Shown here in pieces: positions 21,131 to 31,106 of a DNA stretch of 64,000 bases (position 1 is its first letter; each line of letters starts with the position of its first letter). The stretch spans positions 1,302,001 through 1,366,000 of the forward strand of contig NZ_FNWF01000003.1 in the NCBI RefSeq assembly GCF_900106515.1, given 5' to 3'. Made by a program: the position numbers and the translations under genes. This DNA comes from Peptoniphilus lacydonensis (GTDB lineage: Bacteria > Bacillota > Clostridia > Tissierellales > Peptoniphilaceae). Under the pieces are notes generated by a model. The model was not told the DNA's origin and made no database searches. It was given only the letters and a program-made list of their open reading frames with translations.

Positions 21131-21216
21131 TAAATACGAAATTGATAATCGAATTCAAGTATTGTAAGATTTCTTTGAATTTAGTTTTCTATAAAAAGTT
21201 AGAAGTTGGTGTAAAA

Positions 21217-21447
21217 ATGTTAAGCTTGGTGATGGCTCCTTTAAATGTAGACTTTAGAATTGTAAGAGTTAAAAGTCTTAAAAATAGCAATGTTACAGAA
21301 TCACATCTTGCAAATCTTGGTTTTGTAAGAGGAGCAATAGTAAAAGTTTTAAATGAAAATGATGGGAATTTAATTGTATCAATAAAAGGTGCAAGAGTTG
21401 CAATTGGAAAAGACATTGCAAAAAAAATAATGGTTGAGGAGATGTAA
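21217..21447 (+). CDS. feoA: FeoA-family protein 1
   Basis: A 76-aa SH3-like FeoA domain, a small cytoplasmic partner of the ferrous-iron transporter FeoB. The core segments HLANLGFVRGAIVKVL and VSIKGARVAIGKDIAKKIMV follow the FeoA pattern. I choose the ATG at 21217, giving MLSLVMAPLNVDFRIV. An ATG five codons later is possible because GGTG precedes both. The longer in-frame extension upstream overlaps the promoter region and is rejected. It is the first of two tandem FeoA genes. Confidence 0.85.
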   Translation: MLSLVMAPLNVDFRIVRVKSLKNSNVTESHLANLGFVRGAIVKVLNENDGNLIVSIKGARVAIGKDIAKKIMVEEM

Positions 21448-21449
21448 AA

Positions 21450-21692
21450 TTGCAAACTTTAAGAGATGCAGTTGTAGGAAAATACTACATTGTCAAAAAA
21501 ATTAAAGGTTCAGGGCCACTGAAGAGAAGAATAATGGATATGGGAATTACGAAAAATTCTGAAATATACATAAGAAAGGTAGCACCTCTTGGTGATCCTG
21601 TACAAATAAATATTAGAAATTATGAATTAAGCATTAGACGTGAAGATGCAGAGTTAATTGAAATTGAAGAAGTAGAAAAAAAGGAGGGCTAA
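21450..21692 (+). CDS. feoA: FeoA-family protein 2
   Basis: An 80-aa second FeoA domain, immediately before feoB. Visible are GKYYIVKKIKGSGPLKRRIM, DMGITKNSEIYIRKVAPLGD and the C-terminal strand YELSIRREDAELIEIE. The start is TTG, 8 nt after GAGGAG. Having two FeoA proteins per FeoB is frequent in Clostridia and may reflect a hetero-oligomeric regulator, which is inference. Confidence 0.9.
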   Translation: MQTLRDAVVGKYYIVKKIKGSGPLKRRIMDMGITKNSEIYIRKVAPLGDPVQINIRNYELSIRREDAELIEIEEVEKKEG

Positions 21693-23855
21693 ATGGCTAT
21701 TACTATCGCACTTGCTGGCAATCCCAACAGCGGAAAGTCCACACTATTTAATGGACTAACTGGTTCAAATCAATATGTGGGCAATTGGCCTGGCGTAACT
21801 GTTGAGAAAAAAACTGGCAAGTATAAAAAAGATAAGGAAGTTCACTTCACAGATTTGCCGGGAATTTATTCTCTTTCACCTTACACTTTGGAAGAAGTTG
21901 TATCGAGAGATTATCTTGTAAATGAAAAACCAGATGCAATTATTGATGTTGTAGATGCGACAAATATTGAAAGAAATTTATTTTTGGCAACACAACTTGT
22001 TGAATTGGGAATACCTGTTGTAATTGCACTTAATATGATGGATGTAGTCAAAAAGAATAATGACTATATAGATATAAAAAAATTAGAAAAAAGTTTGGGT
22101 TGCAAGATTGTAGAGATTTCTGCACTTAAAAATGAAAATATTGATAAATTAATAGATGTAGCAAAAAGTGTAGCTATGTCAAAAGAAACACATTATCAAA
22201 AATTTGATGATGATATTGAAAAATACATTGAAGAAATAGAAAATTTTAGTGTAATTAAAGACAATCCTGCAAAGAGATGGCTTGCAGTTAAACTTTTTGA
22301 ACAAGATGAAAAAATAATAAATGAATTTCCCCTTTATGGAAATGAAACTAAAAGGCTTGATGAAATTGTTGAAGAAGCTGAAGAAAAGTTTGATGATGAT
22401 GGCGAAGGAATTATTACTGATGGAAGATATAATTTTGTATCAAAGATAACAAAGGATGCTGTCAAAAAGGGCAGAAAGGGAATGACAAAGTCTGACAAAA
22501 TAGATAGGTTTGTAACAAATAGATTTTTGGCAATTCCAATTTTTGTAGGAATAATTACTTTGGTATATATGCTTGCAATAAATGTTGTTGGAGGACCTGT
22601 AACAGATTGGGTAAATGATGTTTTCTTTGGCGAAATTATTGGAGAAAATTTTAGAGGGTTTCTAGAAAATGCTGGAACATCAGAATTTTTGACGTCACTT
22701 TTAGTTGATGGAATTATTGGTGGTGTGGGGGCAGTTCTTGGTTTTCTTCCAGTAATTGCTGTATTATTTTTATTTATTTCAATCTTGGAAGATGTTGGTT
22801 ATATGTCAAGAATTGCGTTTATCCTCGACAGAATTTTTAGGAGGTTTGGTCTTTCTGGGAAAAGTTTTATTCCAATTTTAATGGGTACAGGTTGTTCAGT
22901 CCCAGCTATAATGGCGACGAGGACAATTGAGTCTGACAACGACAGAAGAATGACTATTATGACTACGTCTTTTATGCCATGCGGTGCAAAACTTGATATA
23001 ATTGCAATGTTTGCGGCATTTTTGGGAGGAAGCTGGTGGTATGCTCCTATTTGGTATTTTGGTGGAATAATGGCAGTAATAATTTCTGGAATTATTTTGA
23101 AAAAGACAAAATATTTTTCAGGAGATCCTGCTCCATTTGTAATGGAACTTCCAGAATATCACATGCCAAGTGCACACAATGTTTTAAAAGCAACATGGCA
23201 TAGATGTAAAGCCTTCGTTGTAAAAGCGGGAACGATAATTTTACTCGCAACTGTTGCAATTTGGTTCTTGAAAAATATTTCAGTGACAGGAGAATTTATG
23301 GACTTTGATAGAGATCCATCTGATTCTGTTCTTGCTGCAGCAGGAAAAGTGATTGCTCCAATCTTTAAACCTCTTGGATTTGGAAATTGGATTGCAAGTG
23401 TATCAACGATACTTGGACTTGTTGCAAAAGAAGTTGTAGTAGGAACTTATGGAGTTCTTGCAGGTATAGGAGAAGTTGGAGCAGAAGACGCACCAATGGT
23501 TGCATTAGTTTCTTCACAATTTACAGTGGCATCAGCTTTTGCCTTTGTATTCTTTAATCAACTTACAGTTCCTTGTTTTGCAGCAACAGGAGCGATAAAA
23601 GAAGAAATGGGATCAAGAAAGTGGTATTTATTTGCCATTGGATATCAAATTCTATTCTCTTATACAATTGCATTTATGATTTATCAATTTGGAAGAGTTA
23701 TAGAAGGTGGAGCATTTAATGTAGGCACAGCCATTGCAATAGTAGTTTTATTCATCTATGGATACTTTTTATTTAGAAAAGATAGATCAAAACTTAAAAA
23801 TAAAGATTTTGATCACAACAAAAAAGATGAGGTGATAAAATATGAGTCCAATTAA
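21693..23855 (+). CDS. feoB: Ferrous iron transporter B
   Basis: A 720-aa membrane protein importing Fe2+. The N-terminal GTPase has G1 GNPNSGKST (residues 9-17), the switch segment YVGNWPGVTVE, DLPGIYSL and NMMD. A membrane part of about eight helices holds the gate motifs GTGCSVPAIMATRTIE and SFMPCGAKL. It directly abuts feoA2, so FeoA and FeoB are made together. In anaerobes this is usually the main iron uptake route. The gene end overlaps the following small Cys-rich gene by 14 nt. Confidence 0.97.
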   Translation: MAITIALAGNPNSGKSTLFNGLTGSNQYVGNWPGVTVEKKTGKYKKDKEVHFTDLPGIYSLSPYTLEEVVSRDYLVNEKPDAIIDVVDATNIERNLFLATQLVELGIPVVIALNMMDVVKKNNDYIDIKKLEKSLGCKIVEISALKNENIDKLIDVAKSVAMSKETHYQKFDDDIEKYIEEIENFSVIKDNPAKRWLAVKLFEQDEKIINEFPLYGNETKRLDEIVEEAEEKFDDDGEGIITDGRYNFVSKITKDAVKKGRKGMTKSDKIDRFVTNRFLAIPIFVGIITLVYMLAINVVGGPVTDWVNDVFFGEIIGENFRGFLENAGTSEFLTSLLVDGIIGGVGAVLGFLPVIAVLFLFISILEDVGYMSRIAFILDRIFRRFGLSGKSFIPILMGTGCSVPAIMATRTIESDNDRRMTIMTTSFMPCGAKLDIIAMFAAFLGGSWWYAPIWYFGGIMAVIISGIILKKTKYFSGDPAPFVMELPEYHMPSAHNVLKATWHRCKAFVVKAGTIILLATVAIWFLKNISVTGEFMDFDRDPSDSVLAAAGKVIAPIFKPLGFGNWIASVSTILGLVAKEVVVGTYGVLAGIGEVGAEDAPMVALVSSQFTVASAFAFVFFNQLTVPCFAATGAIKEEMGSRKWYLFAIGYQILFSYTIAFMIYQFGRVIEGGAFNVGTAIAIVVLFIYGYFLFRKDRSKLKNKDFDHNKKDEVIKYESN

Positions 23856-24031: not shown

Positions 24032-24082
24032 TTTTAATTTAGATTAAATAAGAAGTTATGCAAGTGATGGAAATAAAACCAT

Positions 24083-24120
24083 AAAAAACAGATGACAACT
24101 AAAAATAATCACCATCTGTT
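24083..24120 (-). terminator. Terminator of the minus-strand HTH gene
   Basis: A perfect 8-bp stem AACAGATG/CATCTGTT with an 18-nt loop. Read on the minus strand it ends in a run of T. The stem overlaps the stop codon of the gene. Confidence 0.75.
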
Positions 24121-25558
24121 AATTTGAATTATTTGATATTTTTTTAAAAACTTCCGCATATTTTGAGAAAGTCTTTTCCAATTCTTCTACACTATATTTT
24201 TTACTATATGGACTTCTCATTATTTCTTCTAATGCTTGGCACATATTGTTGTGTATTTTTGTATCTGATACTATGGATGTAGGGGTGTTTGAGTCTTCTG
24301 ATAATATTTTTTTGAAAAACATATTATTTTCACTTATAAAAAAATTAAATTGATCTAGACCAAGAGAAGAAATAAACCTATTGTCATTTATAATGTAAAA
24401 ATTTATTTTTTTATTATTTTTCATTACATTAATTATATTTTTAAAGTGTGCTTCTCGGTCTTTGTAACTTAACTTTGCTTTTGTGGAACAGTAAAGCATA
24501 TCACCCGTTTCGAAATAATTTAATAGGCTTGTCTTTGTTGTCAGAAAGTTTATATTTGAGTCTGCAAATAACTCATCCCAAATAAGCTTTATGTTTAATA
24601 TTTCAGATTTTTTGTATTCAAATTTATCACTGATAGAATTAAGGATTTTATCTATTATATAATTTGGCAGTAAAAATTCGAAGCCATAATTTGACAGAAA
24701 TAGAAATTCATTATCTGAATAAAAATATTTTCTGTAATTTGTCTTTGCAATTTCTTCTGGTGATGATATTGTTATAATTTTATTTAACTCATTAAATAGA
24801 TTGTCGATATAAGATGAAAATTCAAGTAGGGTGTCTAATTCGTTGCCGTAAGTTATTGTATTTAAGTTTTGGGCATCGTTGTTAAATACTATATACATTT
24901 TATCTTTTACTAATAAATAATTGTAATTTACATTACTATTCTCATATAGCTCTATATCAACATTGGAGTTATCTGTTATACTTTTCAATATATTCTTATC
25001 TTGTAAATTTTTTTTATCACAGAGAAGATGCAATTTTATTTTTTTGTTTTTTGTCTTTTTTGTAATATTAAATAGTAAATTTGCATATTGACTATATATG
25101 TCAAAGGTTGCCCAAATGTCTAATTCATTATTTTCAAATATTATTTTTTTGAAAATTTTCTTTATATCATCATCAGCGTTATGATTCCTAAAAATAAAGT
25201 TTGTATTGGATCTATATTTTGCTGGAACATCGGAATTTGTGTAATTGTAAGAATCATTTAATAGTTTATAAATTAAAAACTCAAGACCCCTTTCTTCGTT
25301 TGTTTTCAATATTTCAGAGCTCTTTAAGTTAAAGAAAAGCAAGAATTCATTTATTTTATTTTCTTCTATTAAAGCTTTAGAGAAGAGAGTGGCCAATTTT
25401 CCGTTAATTATATAAATATTTTTATAAGAGGGAAGTTTTTTGCCACTATTCCACTTGCTTATATAGGATATGTCGTAATCTAAAATATAGGCAATAGTAG
25501 AGAGTTTTGTATTTGTCATATCTGTTAGTGTTTTAAAAACTTGTCTGTAAGACCACAT
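24119..25558 (-). CDS. Helix-turn-helix protein with large unrecognised C-terminus
   Basis: A 479-aa protein. The first 60 or so residues look like an XRE-type DNA-binding domain: YRQVFKTLTDMTNTKLSTIA then YILDYDISYISKWNSGKK, where SYISKWNSGKKLPS resembles the recognition helix. The remaining 400 residues are Asn/Lys/Ile-rich alternating strands and helices with no transmembrane segment and no motif I know. One stretch (LLVKDKMYIVF) faintly recalls a degenerate HKD fold, but catalytic His is absent. The ATG at 25558 has AGAGG 8 nt upstream; GTG at 25567 lies in that site. It has a consensus promoter with an overlapping palindrome and is divergent from the GlcD/Etf operon, suggesting an autoregulated local regulator. 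Confidence 0.75.
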   Translation of the reverse strand: MWSYRQVFKTLTDMTNTKLSTIAYILDYDISYISKWNSGKKLPSYKNIYIINGKLATLFSKALIEENKINEFLLFFNLKSSEILKTNEERGLEFLIYKLLNDSYNYTNSDVPAKYRSNTNFIFRNHNADDDIKKIFKKIIFENNELDIWATFDIYSQYANLLFNITKKTKNKKIKLHLLCDKKNLQDKNILKSITDNSNVDIELYENSNVNYNYLLVKDKMYIVFNNDAQNLNTITYGNELDTLLEFSSYIDNLFNELNKIITISSPEEIAKTNYRKYFYSDNEFLFLSNYGFEFLLPNYIIDKILNSISDKFEYKKSEILNIKLIWDELFADSNINFLTTKTSLLNYFETGDMLYCSTKAKLSYKDREAHFKNIINVMKNNKKINFYIINDNRFISSLGLDQFNFFISENNMFFKKILSEDSNTPTSIVSDTKIHNNMCQALEEIMRSPYSKKYSVEELEKTFSKYAEVFKKISNNSN

Positions 25559-25588
25559 ATGAAGCACCTCTTATATAGTATGAAGTAC

Positions 25589-25617
25589 ATTATATTGTTT
25601 TATTGACTAAAAGTCAA
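25589..25617 (-). promoter_or_regulatory. Promoter of the HTH gene
   Basis: On the minus strand TTGACT (25617-25612), a 17-nt spacer and TATAAT (25594-25589), about 30 nt before the start codon. Confidence 0.8.
25603..25617. promoter_or_regulatory. Candidate operator palindrome
   Basis: TTGACT-AAA-AGTCAA is a perfect 6-3-6 palindrome whose right arm is the -35 of the minus-strand promoter. A protein bound here would block the HTH gene promoter. Autoregulation by the adjacent HTH protein is inferred. Confidence 0.6.
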
Positions 25618-25632
25618 ATAATGTCTTAAAAG

Positions 25633-25646
25633 TGCAACATGTTTCA
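25633..25646. promoter_or_regulatory. Second palindrome in the divergent region
   Basis: TGCAACATGTTTCA is an imperfect 14-bp palindrome with a perfect AACATGTT core, between the divergent promoters. It could be an operator for the GlcD/Etf operon. Confidence 0.35.
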
Positions 25647-25658
25647 AGAAGTAAAATA

Positions 25659-25686
25659 TTAAATTAAGCCTATGCCATTATATAAT
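25659..25686 (+). promoter_or_regulatory. Probable promoter of the GlcD-Acd-Etf-LrgAB operon
   Basis: TATAAT (25681-25686) with a weak TTAAAT 16 nt upstream, about 50 nt before the first ATG. The poor -35 would suit an activated promoter. Confidence 0.5.
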
Positions 25687-25738
25687 AAAATAAATATGAG
25701 TATATTTTTAATATATAAAAAATTATTTGGAGGAGAAA

Positions 25739-27151
25739 ATGGTAAACTATAATACTGTAACTGATAAAGTTATTGAAGAAATCAAAAGTTCTGTCAGTGG
25801 CAATGTATATGTTGGAGAAGAAATTAATATTGATTTTTTCCACGATGAAATGCCTATATATGGCGAAGGTCAACCTGAACTTGTTGTTGATGCAGTAAAT
25901 GCAAAAGAAATTTCCAAAATTGTTAAAATTTGTAATGAAAATAAGATTCCTGTAGTGCCAAGAGGTGCAGGAACAGGACTTACTGGTGCTGGAGTTTCTA
26001 GATTTGGTGGCGTTATGATTAATATGCAATCAATGAATAATATTCTAGAATATGATGAAGAAAACATGGTAGTTAAGGTAGAACCAGGCGTATTACTTAA
26101 TGATTTGGCTGAAGACTGTCTAGCAAAAGGATATATGTATCCACCAGATCCAGGTGAAAAATTTGCTACTCTTGGCGGAAATGTTGCTACTAATGCAGGT
26201 GGTATGAGAGCTGTTAAATATGGTACTACAAGAAATTATGTGCGTTCAATGGAAGTTGTTCTTCCTACTGGAGAAATAACTAATTTTGGTGCAACAGTTT
26301 CTAAGACTTCAACAGGTTATTCATTAAAGGATCTTATTATCGGGTCTGAAGGTACTCTTGGAATTATTACTGAACTAACGCTTAAAATTATTCCTGCTCC
26401 AAAAGAAACTATTTCATTAATTGTTCCATATGAAGATTTAGACACTTGTATTTCAACTGTTCCACAATTATTTAAAGCTCACTTAAATCCACAAGCTATC
26501 GAATTTATGGAAAAAGAAATTGTTGATATGTCTGAAATCTACATTGGAAAATCTACTTTTCCTAAAGAATTAGATGGAATTGAAATTGGTGCTTACTTAT
26601 TAATAACTTTTGATGGTAATGACGAAGATGAACTTAATGATATTATTGAAGAAGCCGCTGAAGTATTAATGGAAGCTGGAGCAATTGACATTCTTGTAGC
26701 TGATACTCCAAAAAAGATTAAAGAAGCGTGGGCTGCTAGATCATCTTTTCTTGAAGCAATTGAATCTCAAACTAAGCTTCTTGACGAATGTGACGTTGTT
26801 GTTCCAATTAATATGATTGCTAAATACGTTCAATATGTTAATGAAAAAGCAAAGAATTATTCATTTGAAGTTAAGAGCTTTGGTCACGCAGGTGATGGAA
26901 ATTTACACATTTACACTTGTTCAAATGATATGGAAAAAGATGAATTCATGAAACAAGTTGAAGAATTCATGAAAGATATTTATGGAAAAGCTTATGAATT
27001 TGGTGGACAAATTTCTGGTGAACATGGTATTGGTTTTGGTAAAAAAGAATTTTTGAAGATTTTTGAAGGGGATGTAAATACTGATTTAATGAGAGGTATT
27101 AAAAAAGTATTTGATCCAAACTTAATATTAAATCCAAACAAAGTTATTTAA
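25739..27151 (+). CDS. FAD-binding 2-hydroxyacid dehydrogenase, GlcD/LctD family
   Basis: A 470-aa VAO-type flavoprotein related to the glycolate oxidase subunit GlcD and D-lactate dehydrogenases. The FAD domain shows VPRGAGTGLTGAGVSRFGG and TLGGNVATNAGGMRAVKYG. The C-terminal cap has FGHAGDGNLHIY and SGEHGIGFGKKEFL. The ATG is 5 nt after GGAGG. Clustering with EtfB and EtfA resembles the Etf-dependent lactate dehydrogenase of acetogens (LctBCD), so a D-2-hydroxyacid such as lactate is the likely substrate and Etf the acceptor. It could alternatively feed the acyl-CoA dehydrogenase. Substrate is inference. Confidence 0.88.
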   Translation: MVNYNTVTDKVIEEIKSSVSGNVYVGEEINIDFFHDEMPIYGEGQPELVVDAVNAKEISKIVKICNENKIPVVPRGAGTGLTGAGVSRFGGVMINMQSMNNILEYDEENMVVKVEPGVLLNDLAEDCLAKGYMYPPDPGEKFATLGGNVATNAGGMRAVKYGTTRNYVRSMEVVLPTGEITNFGATVSKTSTGYSLKDLIIGSEGTLGIITELTLKIIPAPKETISLIVPYEDLDTCISTVPQLFKAHLNPQAIEFMEKEIVDMSEIYIGKSTFPKELDGIEIGAYLLITFDGNDEDELNDIIEEAAEVLMEAGAIDILVADTPKKIKEAWAARSSFLEAIESQTKLLDECDVVVPINMIAKYVQYVNEKAKNYSFEVKSFGHAGDGNLHIYTCSNDMEKDEFMKQVEEFMKDIYGKAYEFGGQISGEHGIGFGKKEFLKIFEGDVNTDLMRGIKKVFDPNLILNPNKVI

Positions 27152-27166
27152 TAAAAGGGGATATAA

Positions 27167-28303
27167 ATGTCATATTTAATTTCAGAAGAGGCACAAGATT
27201 TATTATTAGATGTTAAGAATTTTTGTGAAAAAGAAGTAGTAGAAGTTGCAAAGGAAGCTGATCGTACTGGTGAATGGCCAGAAGAGCTTTATGAAAAAGC
27301 AAAAGAGCAAGGATATTTTGCTCTAGAAGTTCCTGAAGAATTGGGAGGACCTGGTCTTTCTAGAATTGACATTGCTGCTTTATTTGAAGAAATGGCAAAG
27401 GCTGATGCTGGTTTTGCAACTACTATTTCAGCGTCAGGACTAGGAATGAAACCTGTTCTTATTGCAGGAACTGAAGAACAAAAGGAATACATTGCTGACA
27501 TTACTATGGAAGGTGGACTTGGAGCATTTTGCCTTACTGAGCCAGGTGCAGGTTCTGACGCAAGTTCAGGAACAACTACTGCTGTAAAAGATGGCGACGA
27601 ATATGTATTAAACGGAAGAAAGTGTTTTATTACTAATGGAGCTGTTGCATCATATTATTGCATAACTGCTCTTACTGACAAATCAAAGGGCGTTAAAGGA
27701 ATGTCTATGTTCTTAGTGCCAGCTGGAACTAAGGGTTTAAGTGCAGGAAAAGAAGAAGACAAGATGGGTATTAGAACTTCTAATACTACTGATGTTGTTC
27801 TTGAAGATTGTAGGATTCCTGCTAAAAACCTTATTGGTGAAGAAGGTAAGGGATTTTCAATTGCTATGAAAACTCTTGACCAAGCTAGGGCTTGGATGGG
27901 TTGTATTGCAGTTGGTATTGCTCAAAGGGGCATAGATGAAGCTAAAAAATATACAAGTGAGAGAGTTCAATTTGGAAAATCAATAAACGAAAATCAAGCA
28001 ATACAATTTAAACTTGCAGATATGGATATTCAAACAGAAGTAGCAAGACAAATGGTTGGCAATGCTCTTACAAGAATGGATATGGGATTAACTTACAACA
28101 GAGAGTCTGCAATTGCAAAATGCTTTGCATCAGATATTGCTATGAGAGTCGCTGAAAATTCTATTCAACTTTTTGGTGGATATGGTTACAGTAGAGAATA
28201 TCCTGTTGAAAAACTTTTAAGAGATGCGAAAATTTTCCAAATTTTTGAAGGTACTAATGAGATTTTGAGAATTGTTGTTGCAAATAATTTATTGAGAGGT
28301 TAA
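27167..28303 (+). CDS. Acyl-CoA dehydrogenase
   Basis: A 378-aa FAD-dependent dehydrogenase of the short-chain (butyryl-CoA dehydrogenase) type. FCLTEPGAGSDASSG and the flavin-binding CFITNGAVASYY segment are present. The catalytic Glu is in FQIFEGTNEILRIVVA near the C-terminus, where short-chain enzymes carry it. In butyrate-forming anaerobes it reduces crotonyl-CoA using an Etf. Here EtfB and EtfA follow immediately and a GlcD flavoprotein precedes. No crotonase or thiolase is nearby, so an acyl-CoA other than crotonyl-CoA is possible. Confidence 0.93.
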   Translation: MSYLISEEAQDLLLDVKNFCEKEVVEVAKEADRTGEWPEELYEKAKEQGYFALEVPEELGGPGLSRIDIAALFEEMAKADAGFATTISASGLGMKPVLIAGTEEQKEYIADITMEGGLGAFCLTEPGAGSDASSGTTTAVKDGDEYVLNGRKCFITNGAVASYYCITALTDKSKGVKGMSMFLVPAGTKGLSAGKEEDKMGIRTSNTTDVVLEDCRIPAKNLIGEEGKGFSIAMKTLDQARAWMGCIAVGIAQRGIDEAKKYTSERVQFGKSINENQAIQFKLADMDIQTEVARQMVGNALTRMDMGLTYNRESAIAKCFASDIAMRVAENSIQLFGGYGYSREYPVEKLLRDAKIFQIFEGTNEILRIVVANNLLRG

Positions 28304-28306
28304 TAG

Positions 28307-29074
28307 ATGAATATTTTAGTGTGTATTAAAGAAGTGCCTGATGATTCAGTATCAGTTTCTGTCAGTAATGACAGAGCTGTTACTGAAGACATCACGCCAA
28401 TTGTAAATGCTTTTGATACTTACTCCTTGGAAATGGCAGTAAGATTAAAGGAAAAAGAAGAGGGGCAAGTTGTAGTAGTTTCTATTGGAGATGAAGGTGT
28501 CAAAAATTCACTTAAAAACTGTTTAGCAGTTGGTGCTGACAAAGCATATTTAATTAAGTGCGATGATTATAAAAATTTAGACACAAATTCAATTACAAAT
28601 ATTTTAATAGATGCAAAGAAAAAATTAGAAGAAGAATGTGGCGTTTTTGATTTAGTTTGTTTTGGTAAAGAAACTACTGATAAAGAAGCTTCACAAGTTG
28701 GAGTTTATTTTGCAAATAAAGTAGGTCAAGGTGTTGTTACATCTGTAATTGAAATTACAAAGGATGGGGATTCTCTAATTTCTAAACAAGAAATTGATGG
28801 TGGATATAGAGAAGTTGAAACAAAGATGCCATCTGTGCTAACAATTGCTAAGCCAAATTATGAACCTAGATATCCTACTATAAAGAGTAAAATGGCTGCA
28901 AGAAGACAAAAAATTGACGATATAGAAGTTGAGAGCATCTCAGAATTGATTCTTGAAGAATTAAAAGACTTTGAACCTGAAAAAAGACAAGCAGGAGTTA
29001 AGATCAACGAAGAAGATGCCGAAGTAAGTGTTCAAAAAGCAATTGAATTAATGAAAGAAAAAAAGGTTATATAG
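28307..29074 (+). CDS. etfB: Electron transfer flavoprotein subunit beta (copy 1)
   Basis: A 255-aa EtfB that with EtfA shuttles electrons between flavoprotein dehydrogenases. MNILVCIKEVPDD at the N-terminus is typical, and KMPSVLTIAKPNYEPRYPT marks the C-terminal half. The nucleotide-binding stretch reads GKETTDKEASQVGVYFANKV, not the DGDTxQVGPQIAE form seen in the second EtfB of this window. The pair may therefore have different partners or redox behaviour. Spacing to the dehydrogenase is 3 nt. Confidence 0.93.
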   Translation: MNILVCIKEVPDDSVSVSVSNDRAVTEDITPIVNAFDTYSLEMAVRLKEKEEGQVVVVSIGDEGVKNSLKNCLAVGADKAYLIKCDDYKNLDTNSITNILIDAKKKLEEECGVFDLVCFGKETTDKEASQVGVYFANKVGQGVVTSVIEITKDGDSLISKQEIDGGYREVETKMPSVLTIAKPNYEPRYPTIKSKMAARRQKIDDIEVESISELILEELKDFEPEKRQAGVKINEEDAEVSVQKAIELMKEKKVI

Positions 29075-29083
29075 GAGGTCAAG

Positions 29084-30052
29084 ATGAAAAATATATTAAC
29101 TTATATAGAAATAAAAGATAGGGCTCCTATAAAGCTAAGCTTGGAGTCATTATCTAAGGCAAGTGAAATTGCAAAGGAAAAATCAACTGAATCTATTGCT
29201 CTAATTTTTGATGATATTGTTGATGAAGAAGTAGAAAAGCTAAAAGCAGCAGGTGCTGATAAAATTATAATTGTTAAAAGAGATGCTTACAATATGGAAG
29301 ATTTTTCCAATACTATTGTTAAAGTTGCTGAAAAATATGATGCAGAAGATATATTTATCCCTGGAAGTCTTGATGGAAAAGATTTAGCAGCTAATGTTGC
29401 AGCTATTCTTGATACAGTTTCTGTTACTAATGTAATGGATATTAAATTTGAAGGGGACGAAGTTCACTATGTTACTCCATCTTATGGTGCAACAGTTTTA
29501 ACTGTATCAAAGGTAAAAAAAGGGACTAGAATTATTGCTATAAGAAGTGGATCTTTTGATAAGAGAGATGATTTAGCTGGAAAAGGAGAAATCATAAAAG
29601 AAGAAGTTGATGAATTAAAAGATTTGAAAGCAGTTATAAGAGATGTTGTTACTTCAACAGAAGAAGTAATAAATCTTGAAGATGCACAAATTATTGTAAC
29701 TTGTGGAAGAGGCGCAAGTTCAGAAGAAATTTATCCCCTTGTTAAAGAATTAGCTGATGTTCTTGATGCACCTATTTCTGGAACTAGACCAGTAATTGAC
29801 GATGGAGTTTTGCCAAAGGCTTCACAAATAGGTCAATCTGGCAAAATTGTTTCTCCAAAACTTTACATTGGATGCGGAGTTAGTGGAGCAGTGCAACATA
29901 TATCTGGAATTGAGAATTCAGATTTTATAGTAGCTATTAATAAAGATGAAGATGCTCCAATATTTAATATAGCTGACATTGGTATTGTTGGTGATTGTAA
30001 GGTTATTCTTCCCCTATTCACTGAAGAAATTAAAAAAATAAAAGAAAATTAA
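29084..30052 (+). CDS. etfA: Electron transfer flavoprotein subunit alpha (copy 1)
   Basis: A 322-aa EtfA. The C-terminal FAD-binding domain is canonical: VTCGRGASSEE, SGTRPVIDDGVLP, QIGQSGKIVSPKLYIGCGVS and GAVQHISGIENSDFIVAIN. It follows etfB with AGGAGGTC as ribosome binding site and precedes lrgA by 18 nt. It forms the heterodimer with the preceding EtfB and is predicted to serve the GlcD-type enzyme and/or acyl-CoA dehydrogenase of the same operon. Confidence 0.95.
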   Translation: MKNILTYIEIKDRAPIKLSLESLSKASEIAKEKSTESIALIFDDIVDEEVEKLKAAGADKIIIVKRDAYNMEDFSNTIVKVAEKYDAEDIFIPGSLDGKDLAANVAAILDTVSVTNVMDIKFEGDEVHYVTPSYGATVLTVSKVKKGTRIIAIRSGSFDKRDDLAGKGEIIKEEVDELKDLKAVIRDVVTSTEEVINLEDAQIIVTCGRGASSEEIYPLVKELADVLDAPISGTRPVIDDGVLPKASQIGQSGKIVSPKLYIGCGVSGAVQHISGIENSDFIVAINKDEDAPIFNIADIGIVGDCKVILPLFTEEIKKIKEN

Positions 30053-30070: not shown

Positions 30071-30424
30071 ATGAATTATTTAAAGGAGTTTGTAATCCTA
30101 TGTGTATGTTTATTTTTAGGAATAATTACAAGACATCTTATTAATTTTCCTATTCCAGAAGCAGTATATGGGATGATTTATCTATTCATAGCTTTTGCCC
30201 TTAAAATTTTAGAACCTGACGATGTTAAAAAGACATCAAATGGTATTCTTCAAAATTTGGCAATATTATTTGTACCAGCAGGTGTTGGAATAATGAATAG
30301 TTATGACGAGATAAAAGGTAAGACTTTAACACTTGCTCTTATAGTAATAGTAGGGACAGGTATTACTATGGGATTAACTGGTAAGGTAATAGAAATATTG
30401 CAAAGGAGGAAAAATGCTAGATAA
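30071..30424 (+). CDS. lrgA: LrgA/CidA-family membrane protein
   Basis: A 117-aa protein with four predicted transmembrane helices; the family signature is around NFPIPEAVYGMIYLFIAFALK. LrgA/CidA proteins were described as holin-like, but LrgAB pairs are now known as pyruvate carriers in Bacillus and Streptococcus, and the plant LrgAB fusion PLGG1 moves glycolate and glycerate. Lying behind a 2-hydroxyacid oxidase and Etf genes, a carboxylate-transport role is the better guess here. It overlaps lrgB by 11 nt. Confidence 0.85.
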   Translation: MNYLKEFVILCVCLFLGIITRHLINFPIPEAVYGMIYLFIAFALKILEPDDVKKTSNGILQNLAILFVPAGVGIMNSYDEIKGKTLTLALIVIVGTGITMGLTGKVIEILQRRKNAR

Positions 30425-31106
30425 TAAATATTTTGGGATTATTTTAACTTTTGCAACTTTCGAAATAGGAAAGATGATTAACAATAAATTAAAATCTCCA
30501 ATTGCCAATCCACTTTTAATTTCAATTGCTATATGTATATTGTTTTTAAAACTTACTGGCATTCCTTATGAGTCCTATAAGCAAGGCGGAGATTTTATTA
30601 TGTTCTTTATCGCACCTGCTACAGTTGCCATGGTAGTAGATCTCTATGAAAACTTAGAGGAATTGAAAAAGAATTTAATGCCTATTTTAACAGGTACAAT
30701 TTTAGGTTCTATTATATCTCTCGCTTTTGTAATAATTGCATCAAAGTTTGTTGGATTAGATGAAAATTTAGTAGTTTCATCAACTCCACAATCTATTACA
30801 ACGGCAATAGCAATATCTTTATCAGCGGAGTATGGTGGAAATTCTGCAATAACAGCAGTACTTGTAGTTCTCAGAGGAGTTACTGGAGCTGTGATTGCAC
30901 CAATAATAATGAAAATATTTAACATAACAGATCCAACGGCACAAGGTGTTGGTATAGGAACATCATCTCACGCAGTTGGTACATCTGAAGCAAGAAAACT
31001 TGGCGAAATCCAAGGGGCTATGAGCGGTCTTTCAATTGCAGTAGCAGGACTTGTTACTGTAGTTTTAATGCCAATAGCTATGAAACTAATAACTGTATTA
31101 TATTAA
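30414..31106 (+). CDS. lrgB: LrgB-family membrane protein
   Basis: A 230-aa integral membrane partner of LrgA with about six or more helices. The conserved segments SSTPQSITTAIAISLSAEYG, LRGVTGAVIAPIIM and GIGTSSHAVGTSEARKLGE are all present. The ATG inside lrgA has a perfect AGGAGG, so the two are coupled. Together they probably form a secondary carrier for a small 2-oxo or 2-hydroxy acid used by this operon; that substrate is inferred from context. Confidence 0.88.
   Translation: MLDNKYFGIILTFATFEIGKMINNKLKSPIANPLLISIAICILFLKLTGIPYESYKQGGDFIMFFIAPATVAMVVDLYENLEELKKNLMPILTGTILGSIISLAFVIIASKFVGLDENLVVSSTPQSITTAIAISLSAEYGGNSAITAVLVVLRGVTGAVIAPIIMKIFNITDPTAQGVGIGTSSHAVGTSEARKLGEIQGAMSGLSIAVAGLVTVVLMPIAMKLITVLY

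Follow-up and report, generated by a model that had tools for sequence, protein, structure and literature searches.

A candidate regulator of lactate fermentation genes in Peptoniphilus lacydonensis that combines an XRE-like helix-turn-helix with two predicted phospholipase D-like lobes

What does the gene that stands back to back with a glcD-acd-etfBA-lrgAB operon in Peptoniphilus lacydonensis encode? The window analysed here, the whole stretch of 64,000 nucleotides, holds it as an open reading frame of 479 codons, and its product is most likely a DNA-binding switch for the adjacent lactate genes, a role that we read from the neighbourhood. The initial annotation had seen a single-gene unit, equipped with a promoter and a terminator of its own and back to back with an Etf/2-hydroxyacid operon, and both points are confirmed by the features collected in Table 1. 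A start at GTG 25567 would give 482 codons and is less likely, since AGAGGTG precedes ATG 25558 at normal spacing and since nine other close orthologues align from that position (eight start with MW, one with ML). The range first given ran to 25738, directly in front of the glcD ATG, and therefore took in the intergenic region. Of the 13 other genomes of the genus, 9 carry near full-length, stop-free relatives with 57-66% identity, so the frame is not a chance one. Its promoter is the best of the 21 sites scanned, a number that is unremarkable in itself (15.6 ± 3.4 in shuffles), and the stretch 24075-24125 at its terminator has a folding z of -5.3. FeoA/FeoB-like genes, named by eye (21142-23855), end just past this terminator.

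Table 1. Features of the divergent locus, with positions as in the window
Feature	Positions	Strand	Remarks
Regulator CDS	24119..25558	-	479 aa; stop 24119-24121; ATG 25558
XRE-like helix-turn-helix and next long helix	25364..25549	-	residues 4-65
PLD-like lobe 1 (model)	24791..25216	-	residues 115-256; TrmB 3qph_A Z 12.2, rmsd 3.1, 134 aligned
PLD-like lobe 2 (model)	24122..24790	-	residues 257-479, predicted and searched alone; F13 9fhk_A Z 10.4, rmsd 3.7, 153 aligned
Intrinsic terminator of regulator gene	24087..24120	-	15-pair hairpin and T tail at 24120-24087
Regulator promoter TTGACT-17-TATAAT	25589..25617	-	11/12 bases; best of 21 scanned sites
Proposed operator O2, palindrome TTGACTAAAAGTCAA	25603..25617		over the regulator's -35
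Proposed O1, second conserved element, CTTGAAACATGTTGCA on - strand	25633..25648		putative function
TATAAT, presumed -10 of glcD operon	25681..25686	+	conserved; putative
GlcD-type FAD lactate/2-hydroxyacid dehydrogenase	25739..27151	+	best NCBIfam glcD, 369 bits, below its cut-off of 568
Acyl-CoA dehydrogenase (Acd)	27167..28303	+	best NCBIfam acryloyl-CoA reductase AcrC, 415 bits, below its cut-off of 640
EtfB	28307..29074	+	Pfam ETF above cut-off
EtfA	29084..30052	+	Pfam ETF and ETF_alpha above cut-off
LrgA	30071..30424	+	family assignment by profile
LrgB	30414..31106	+	family assignment by profile

Family searches left the protein, called unrecognised in the initial annotation, unnamed: NCBIfam gave no match and Pfam at E≤5 only a sub-threshold one to ThrE (E 0.0077, residues 394-465). 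This match and one to phrog_16480 (E 0.007) were dismissed as chance, because the ThrE score does not reach its cut-off and neither match points to the phospholipase D (PLD)-like fold described below. PDB sequence searches found nothing for the single protein, and the profile gave three sulfatase rows (E 0.56). To the window protein we aligned 45 of the 48 named loci found by pattern and tblastn searching from 12 aligned members (L020, L040 and L059 were omitted as near-copy, split and truncated, respectively), and AlphaFold2 on this 46-row alignment (A2) returned a model with mean pLDDT 88.2 and pTM 0.75; alignment A4 has 37 rows. The N-terminus of the model is compact and all-helical (helices 4-15, 19-26, 30-38 and 45-65), with weak Foldseek rows to the HTH of DdrO (E 0.2). 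HTH_3 (PF01381 and kin) matches 28 of the 46 aligned members at E≤1, the best at 2e-8, the window protein itself not being one of them. Residues Y28, D29, S31, Y32, I33, S34, K35, W36 and P43 are invariant in all 46, and the invariance of the first eight fits a half-site common to the members.

The initial annotation held that the remaining 400 residues match nothing known, and this did not stand: the AlphaFold2 model contains a known fold, phospholipase D-like, twice. With the whole model Foldseek finds PLD-fold proteins as its best matches over about 387-401 columns (E 1.6e-8), at a TM-score of only about 0.26, so that the two lobes do not superpose as one body. Compared by VIA-align, residues 115-264 match archaeal TrmB 3qph_A (Z 12.2, rmsd 3.1, 134 aligned) and 2f5t_X (Z 12.0, rmsd 2.9, 132 aligned), and the rows for NucT, TrmBL2 and polyphosphate kinase score within about 1 Z of TrmB. 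When residues 257-479 were predicted alone (pLDDT 88.3, pTM 0.85), they matched F13 (Z 10.4), SauUSI (Z 10.2) and TrmBL2 (Z 9.1); Foldseek returned for this lobe just 2 matches at E≤0.001, yet its top 11 rows are all PLD-type. In view of the TrmB-type matches of the first lobe and of the F13, SauUSI, TrmBL2 and other PLD-type rows for the second, both lobes of the model are PLD-like, and the C-terminus as predicted is not a new fold. A match to a known enzyme fold had been expected to speak against a new class of regulator. We do not take the PLD-like match in that way, since the catalytic HxKx4D motif is found in 0 of 46 aligned members, window protein included, and since the sensor domain of a regulator, TrmB, is among the closest matches. 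The protein is new in build, an XRE-like HTH followed by tandem PLD-like lobes that lack the catalytic motif, and ordinary in kind, a one-component regulator.

How constant is the company of lactate genes? A regulator match is present in 11 of 61 genomes, our own included: ten belong to the genus, which is represented by 14 genomes, and the eleventh to a different genus of the same family. Regulator and GlcD are adjacent in those 10 of 14 genomes of the genus and both are absent from the other four, which supports the earlier proposal of a single-gene regulator tied to a hydroxyacid/flavin operon, and a locus of a further genus (L176) keeps the divergent arrangement of regulator and operon. 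GlcD homologues (E≤1e-100) occur in 20 genomes, 10 of which, all outside the genus, lack the regulator; in genome G032 an Acd-EtfBA-GlcD-LrgAB cluster has no regulator alongside. Of 249 genomes of the order that were searched by profile, 39 had a match, as did 14 of 291 in the class; many of the weak matches reach no further than the N-terminal part.

The 48 named loci belong, as far as titles tell, to one Fusobacterium and otherwise to Bacillota. At least one lactate-cluster gene is present at 29 of them and none at 19, with several loci cut by contig ends; the 29 comprise 16 lap-type loci (with VOC epimerase, dehydratase/activase or LctP), 10 with GlcD (L040 counts in both) and four with a CoA-transferase only. 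Genes of the acrylate pathway (lap), which leads from lactate to propionate, have relatives of the regulator beside them in Clostridia, in Peptoniphilaceae and in a Fusobacterium. As to whether orthologues always neighbour Etf or LrgAB genes, GlcD adjoins in the genus, and further out lactate genes are frequent neighbours, though not always Etf or LrgAB. Locus genes were named from similarity clusters labelled by tested representatives, otherwise by eye. Representatives of CoA-transferase, VOC, dehydratase, activase, lactate permease, ETF and LrgAB are above the Pfam cut-off; for NCBIfam the activase and one LctP are above it, and the dehydratase subunits, epimerase, CoA-transferase, GlcD, second LctP and acryloyl-CoA-reductase-like Acd are under it. 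At the A. ivorii locus L027, counted among the 19 without lactate-cluster genes, neither lap cluster genes nor GlcD are in view, and an L-lactate dehydrogenase gene (383.5 bits, cut-off 339) converges on the regulator at a distance of 116 bp.

Two loci unite lap, regulator and GlcD-Acd-EtfBA-LrgAB in one island. In Fusobacterium sp. (L178) the order is LrgB, LrgA, LctP, EtfA, EtfB, Acd, GlcD, EtfA-like and one more gene, Acd, LapE, LapD, LapC, LapB, regulator and CoA-transferase; in P. indolicus (L181) it is LapE, LapD, LapC, LapB, regulator, CoA-transferase, Acd and GlcD-Acd-EtfBA-LrgAB. The P. indolicus regulator is in two frames of 371 and 124 codons (L181:8449-9962, and L040:6001-7514), a sequencing error or a broken gene. 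In the tree, the glcD-linked rows group as a single clade (100/100), to which L027 is added next, followed by lap-linked rows of Peptoniphilaceae (97/99) and Fusobacterium (94/96), so that the glcD-linked clade falls among lap-linked rows; long branches were flagged. Rows beside symporter and amidohydrolase genes form a separate clade.

Other surroundings were also observed. A sister clade of Romboutsia and relatives (L046, L047, L049, L053, L058) has symporter-like and amidohydrolase-like neighbours, the symporter-like gene being AGCS by eye with no NCBIfam match. A second copy in P. ovalis (L012), of 27% identity, has a neighbour that is rex-like by eye, and in P. senegalensis (L013:7873-10791) and P. 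grossensis (L016:7848-10765) YfcC-like and beta-aspartyl-peptidase genes lie downstream of the regulator (the L013 copies were tested). The lapD-lapE block is duplicated near the regulator at L107:4230-10187, with the first lapD copy in two pieces. The paralogues L038, L045, L099 and L165-L167 lie near CoA-transferase (not L099), enoyl-CoA hydratase or 3-hydroxyacyl-CoA dehydrogenase-like genes, most of them also near a GntP-type permease, and are perhaps regulators for other short-chain acids.

Does the family accompany lap genes more often than chance would allow? The order of Anaerotignum lactatifermentans was sampled with 392 genomes, of which 46 have a LapD-like gene (E≤1e-150) and 14 the regulator (E≤1e-20); the two occur together in 12 genomes against 1.6 expected (hypergeometric p 1.3e-10, with ancestry ignored). 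The other 34 LapD genomes gave no regulator match, with at most four candidates scored per genome, and some may be missed. Ten of the 17 regulator places in this order are near VOC, LapC-E or LctP, four are near a CoA-transferase only and three near neither. Linkage to lactate genes across lineages thus stands at 29 of 48 named loci and 14 of 17 places in the order sample, four of the latter by CoA-transferase only, and some genomes are common to both sets. In the class sample of 391 genomes, LapD at E≤1e-120 was found in four; the regulator is present in two of these, both times beside lap. Genome G403 carries a lap-like cluster without the regulator. A LapD-like gene of G315 (50% identical) was set aside as part of a different 2-hydroxyacyl-CoA cluster, the regulator being absent there.

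In Coprococcus catus VPIC661 a member of the family (L097:7455-8936, minus strand) is divergent from lapA-F, that is, from genes for CoA-transferase, epimerase, three dehydratase subunits and lactate permease. According to the excerpts of PMC8914356, transcriptomics of another strain, GD/7, found the lap cluster up 2^10.3 to 2^13.1 on lactate versus fructose, and similar lap genes are present in other C. catus genomes. VPIC661 has two further members elsewhere in its genome, three in total, and the lactate switch could be a member other than the one beside lap. The same excerpts name no lap regulator, and LutR/LctA for a separate lct cluster only; the word "regulator" is absent from the retrieved text of PMC9205015 and PMC12342382. 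In the open-access literature searched, a scope that takes in few of the subscription papers, we found no regulator named for the lap cluster. The role proposed here, with its putative ligand and sign, would be new.

The operon beside the window gene has a counterpart of described function. In the excerpts of Do et al. (PMC12630350), Ldh, ETF and Bcd of Fusobacterium nucleatum FN1531-FN1536 couple D-lactate oxidation to crotonyl-CoA reduction, the six-gene cluster includes LrgAB, and this like operon is controlled by ModRS. All six kinds of gene recur in the window operon, with a block order that is alike by locus number; as FN1533 is named the beta subunit in those excerpts, the two Etf genes may be swapped between the two species. 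Most simply, the window operon is the Peptoniphilus version of this cluster.

Where would the regulator bind? TTGACTnnnAGTCAA occurs exactly once in the 1.85-Mb genome, at the shared intergenic region. The palindrome is present in all ten Peptoniphilus intergenic regions, exactly in two and with one arm base changed in eight; their best-kept block is TTGACTTTTA(G/T)TCAA (2 G, 8 T) with TATAAT 17 bp on, and they also keep the upstream TTGnA half-site element and TATAAT on the glcD side. In O1 the TTGnA-type half-sites are spaced one helical turn. L176 carries the exact palindrome at the same operon, and related sites lie between regulator and lapB in two lap-bearing lineages (L022/L023 and the Fusobacterium L024), with another one upstream of the CoA-transferase gene in L022/L023. 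The looser pattern TTGAMn5KTCAA was seen once in the window, at the O2 spot, against 1.37 expected. With one mismatch, TTGACTnnnAGTCAA has eight further places in the genome; six were examined in five stretches (C1:1462979 and C2:16521 were left out), two of them in one stretch with no or short ORFs and four inside ORFs, and none was accepted as a regulon member.

Outside Peptoniphilus, half-sites within 250 bp upstream of 34 regulators number 118 against 65.2 ± 7.0 in shuffles, a limit that leaves out the L022 site. The strict palindrome is not enriched there: it was seen once against 0.1 expected, and 37 of 300 shuffles reached that number. When the arms may stand 3-8 bp apart, six are found against 0.8 in shuffles. 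Compared with other genes of the same loci, some of which share divergent intergenic DNA, the half-site excess outside Peptoniphilus is modest (3.15 versus 2.24 per 250 bp), with p values of 0.012 and 0.027 outside the genus and 0.059 and 0.021 inside. L023, L045, L057, L058 and L060 were removed as near-copies before these counts. In the comparison with shuffles, L037-L039 (CoA-transferase only) were taken as lactate-linked; L029 was so taken there, in the tree and in the residue comparison, though its short locus shows no lap gene.

A model of how the switch might work can be drawn from these elements. The XRE-like HTH of a putative dimer would recognise half-sites of the type TTGA(C/A) between the two divergent genes, and the 400-residue C-terminus, a degenerate, non-catalytic PLD pseudodimer, would hold a small ligand, most likely lactate. 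Seated on O1 and O2, about 52 and about 83 bp upstream of the presumed glcD start, the regulator would turn on glcD-acd-etfBA-lrgAB from a promoter with TATAAT and no recognisable -35. O2 covers the regulator's -35, and binding there would also limit transcription of the regulator itself. Could the regulator instead repress the operon until lactate relieves it? Many one-component catabolic regulators are repressors, and O2 does overlap a promoter; however, judged from consensus sequences, this is the regulator's own -35 and not the promoter of glcD, and O1 and O2 are alike placed upstream of the glcD -10, where the scan lists no promoter-like pair on the plus strand. Repression is therefore a possible but doubtful reading, and the regulator is probably an activator.

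Which ligand would an activator of these genes respond to? Hydroxyacid, acyl-CoA and redox signals had all been suggested, of which a hydroxyacid is the best supported and the other two less so; the ligand is probably lactate. With gene and targets unchanged, it could be pyruvate or a CoA thioester such as lactoyl-, acryloyl- or crotonyl-CoA. Many members have a CoA-transferase or acyl-CoA dehydrogenase gene as neighbour, and a PLD-like cleft that presumably contains the conserved R276, H371 and K416 could accommodate a ligand that is anionic or bears phosphate; in PLD enzymes, phosphoesters are bound in this cleft. Against a thioester stand the A. ivorii regulator, beside L-lactate dehydrogenase in a locus with neither lap nor GlcD, and our own and three other genomes of the genus, which gave no LapD match at E≤1e-120, so that lactoyl-CoA dehydration need not occur there. 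We regard such a ligand as unlikely. For the residue comparison, 24 of the 46 rows were placed in the lactate group, 10 in the other group and 12 in neither. D153, R276, F279, Y280, G292, W327, H371, N382 and K416 are identical in all 24 lactate-group rows; in the other group R276 and G292 occur in none of ten, H371 and N382 in half and K416 in seven. These nine residues are a candidate ligand signature, confounded by ancestry. A restriction- or defence-like role, in which an HTH is joined to a PLD-type nuclease or lipase that is active and the gene stands beside lactate genes by chance, would agree with NucT, SauUSI and PLDs among the fold matches and is highly improbable, given the absence of HxKx4D from all 46 aligned members, no PADLOC match for the window or C. 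catus protein, matches for the Fusobacterium protein that are weak and in the HTH region only (E 0.009 and 0.017), and lactate neighbourhoods in two phyla.

We thus favour, with reasonable though not firm confidence, a dedicated cytoplasmic one-component regulator of lactate fermentation, in which ligand, sign, dimerisation and binding to O1/O2 are putative. The wider proposal has about an even chance in our judgement: an undescribed regulator family with a dead tandem phospholipase D fold as lactate sensor may be the missing switch of lap clusters and lct-lrgAB operons, using one operator type across Bacillota and Fusobacteriota, with paralogues that have the same DNA-reading helix recruited to other operons. 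Lactate use by gut anaerobes decides between lactate build-up and the formation of propionate and butyrate. For the acrylate cluster of C. catus, strongly lactate-induced according to the excerpts of PMC8914356, the family offers a concrete candidate switch with a proposed operator.

How does this protein compare with regulators and enzymes already described? Among the literature matches listed for HTH-PLD regulators there are TrmB papers and nothing nearer. LutR and LctA are GntR-type regulators, and no GntR-type match is among the best 25 of 44 Pfam families for the 46 members. LutR/LctA and ModRS are alike in controlling lactate operons with similar enzymes, as the excerpts of PMC8914356 and PMC12630350 describe. 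The pseudodimeric PLDs (vaccinia F13, bacterial PLD 7e0m and PLD3) are alike over about 387-401 Foldseek columns of the whole model, and the second half of F13 aligns with lobe 2 alone; they differ in that the window protein lacks HxKx4D and has an added HTH. The TrmB/TrmBL sugar regulators of archaea (PF01978 and PF11495; excerpts of PMC4158304) resemble it as one-component proteins with an HTH followed by a PLD-like effector domain. However, TrmB has a winged HTH, one PLD-like lobe and a sugar-binding subdomain, whereas the window protein has an XRE-like HTH and two PLD-like lobes, and its neighbours are lactate genes and not sugar genes. Membership in TrmB, considered from the fold match, is not claimed. 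Pfam gave no match of the window protein to PF01978 or PF11495, and TrmB is absent among the best 25 of 44 Pfam families for the 46 members. A known enzyme fold which has lost its catalytic motif and been doubled apparently serves as a sensor in bacteria, a situation that parallels TrmB of archaea.
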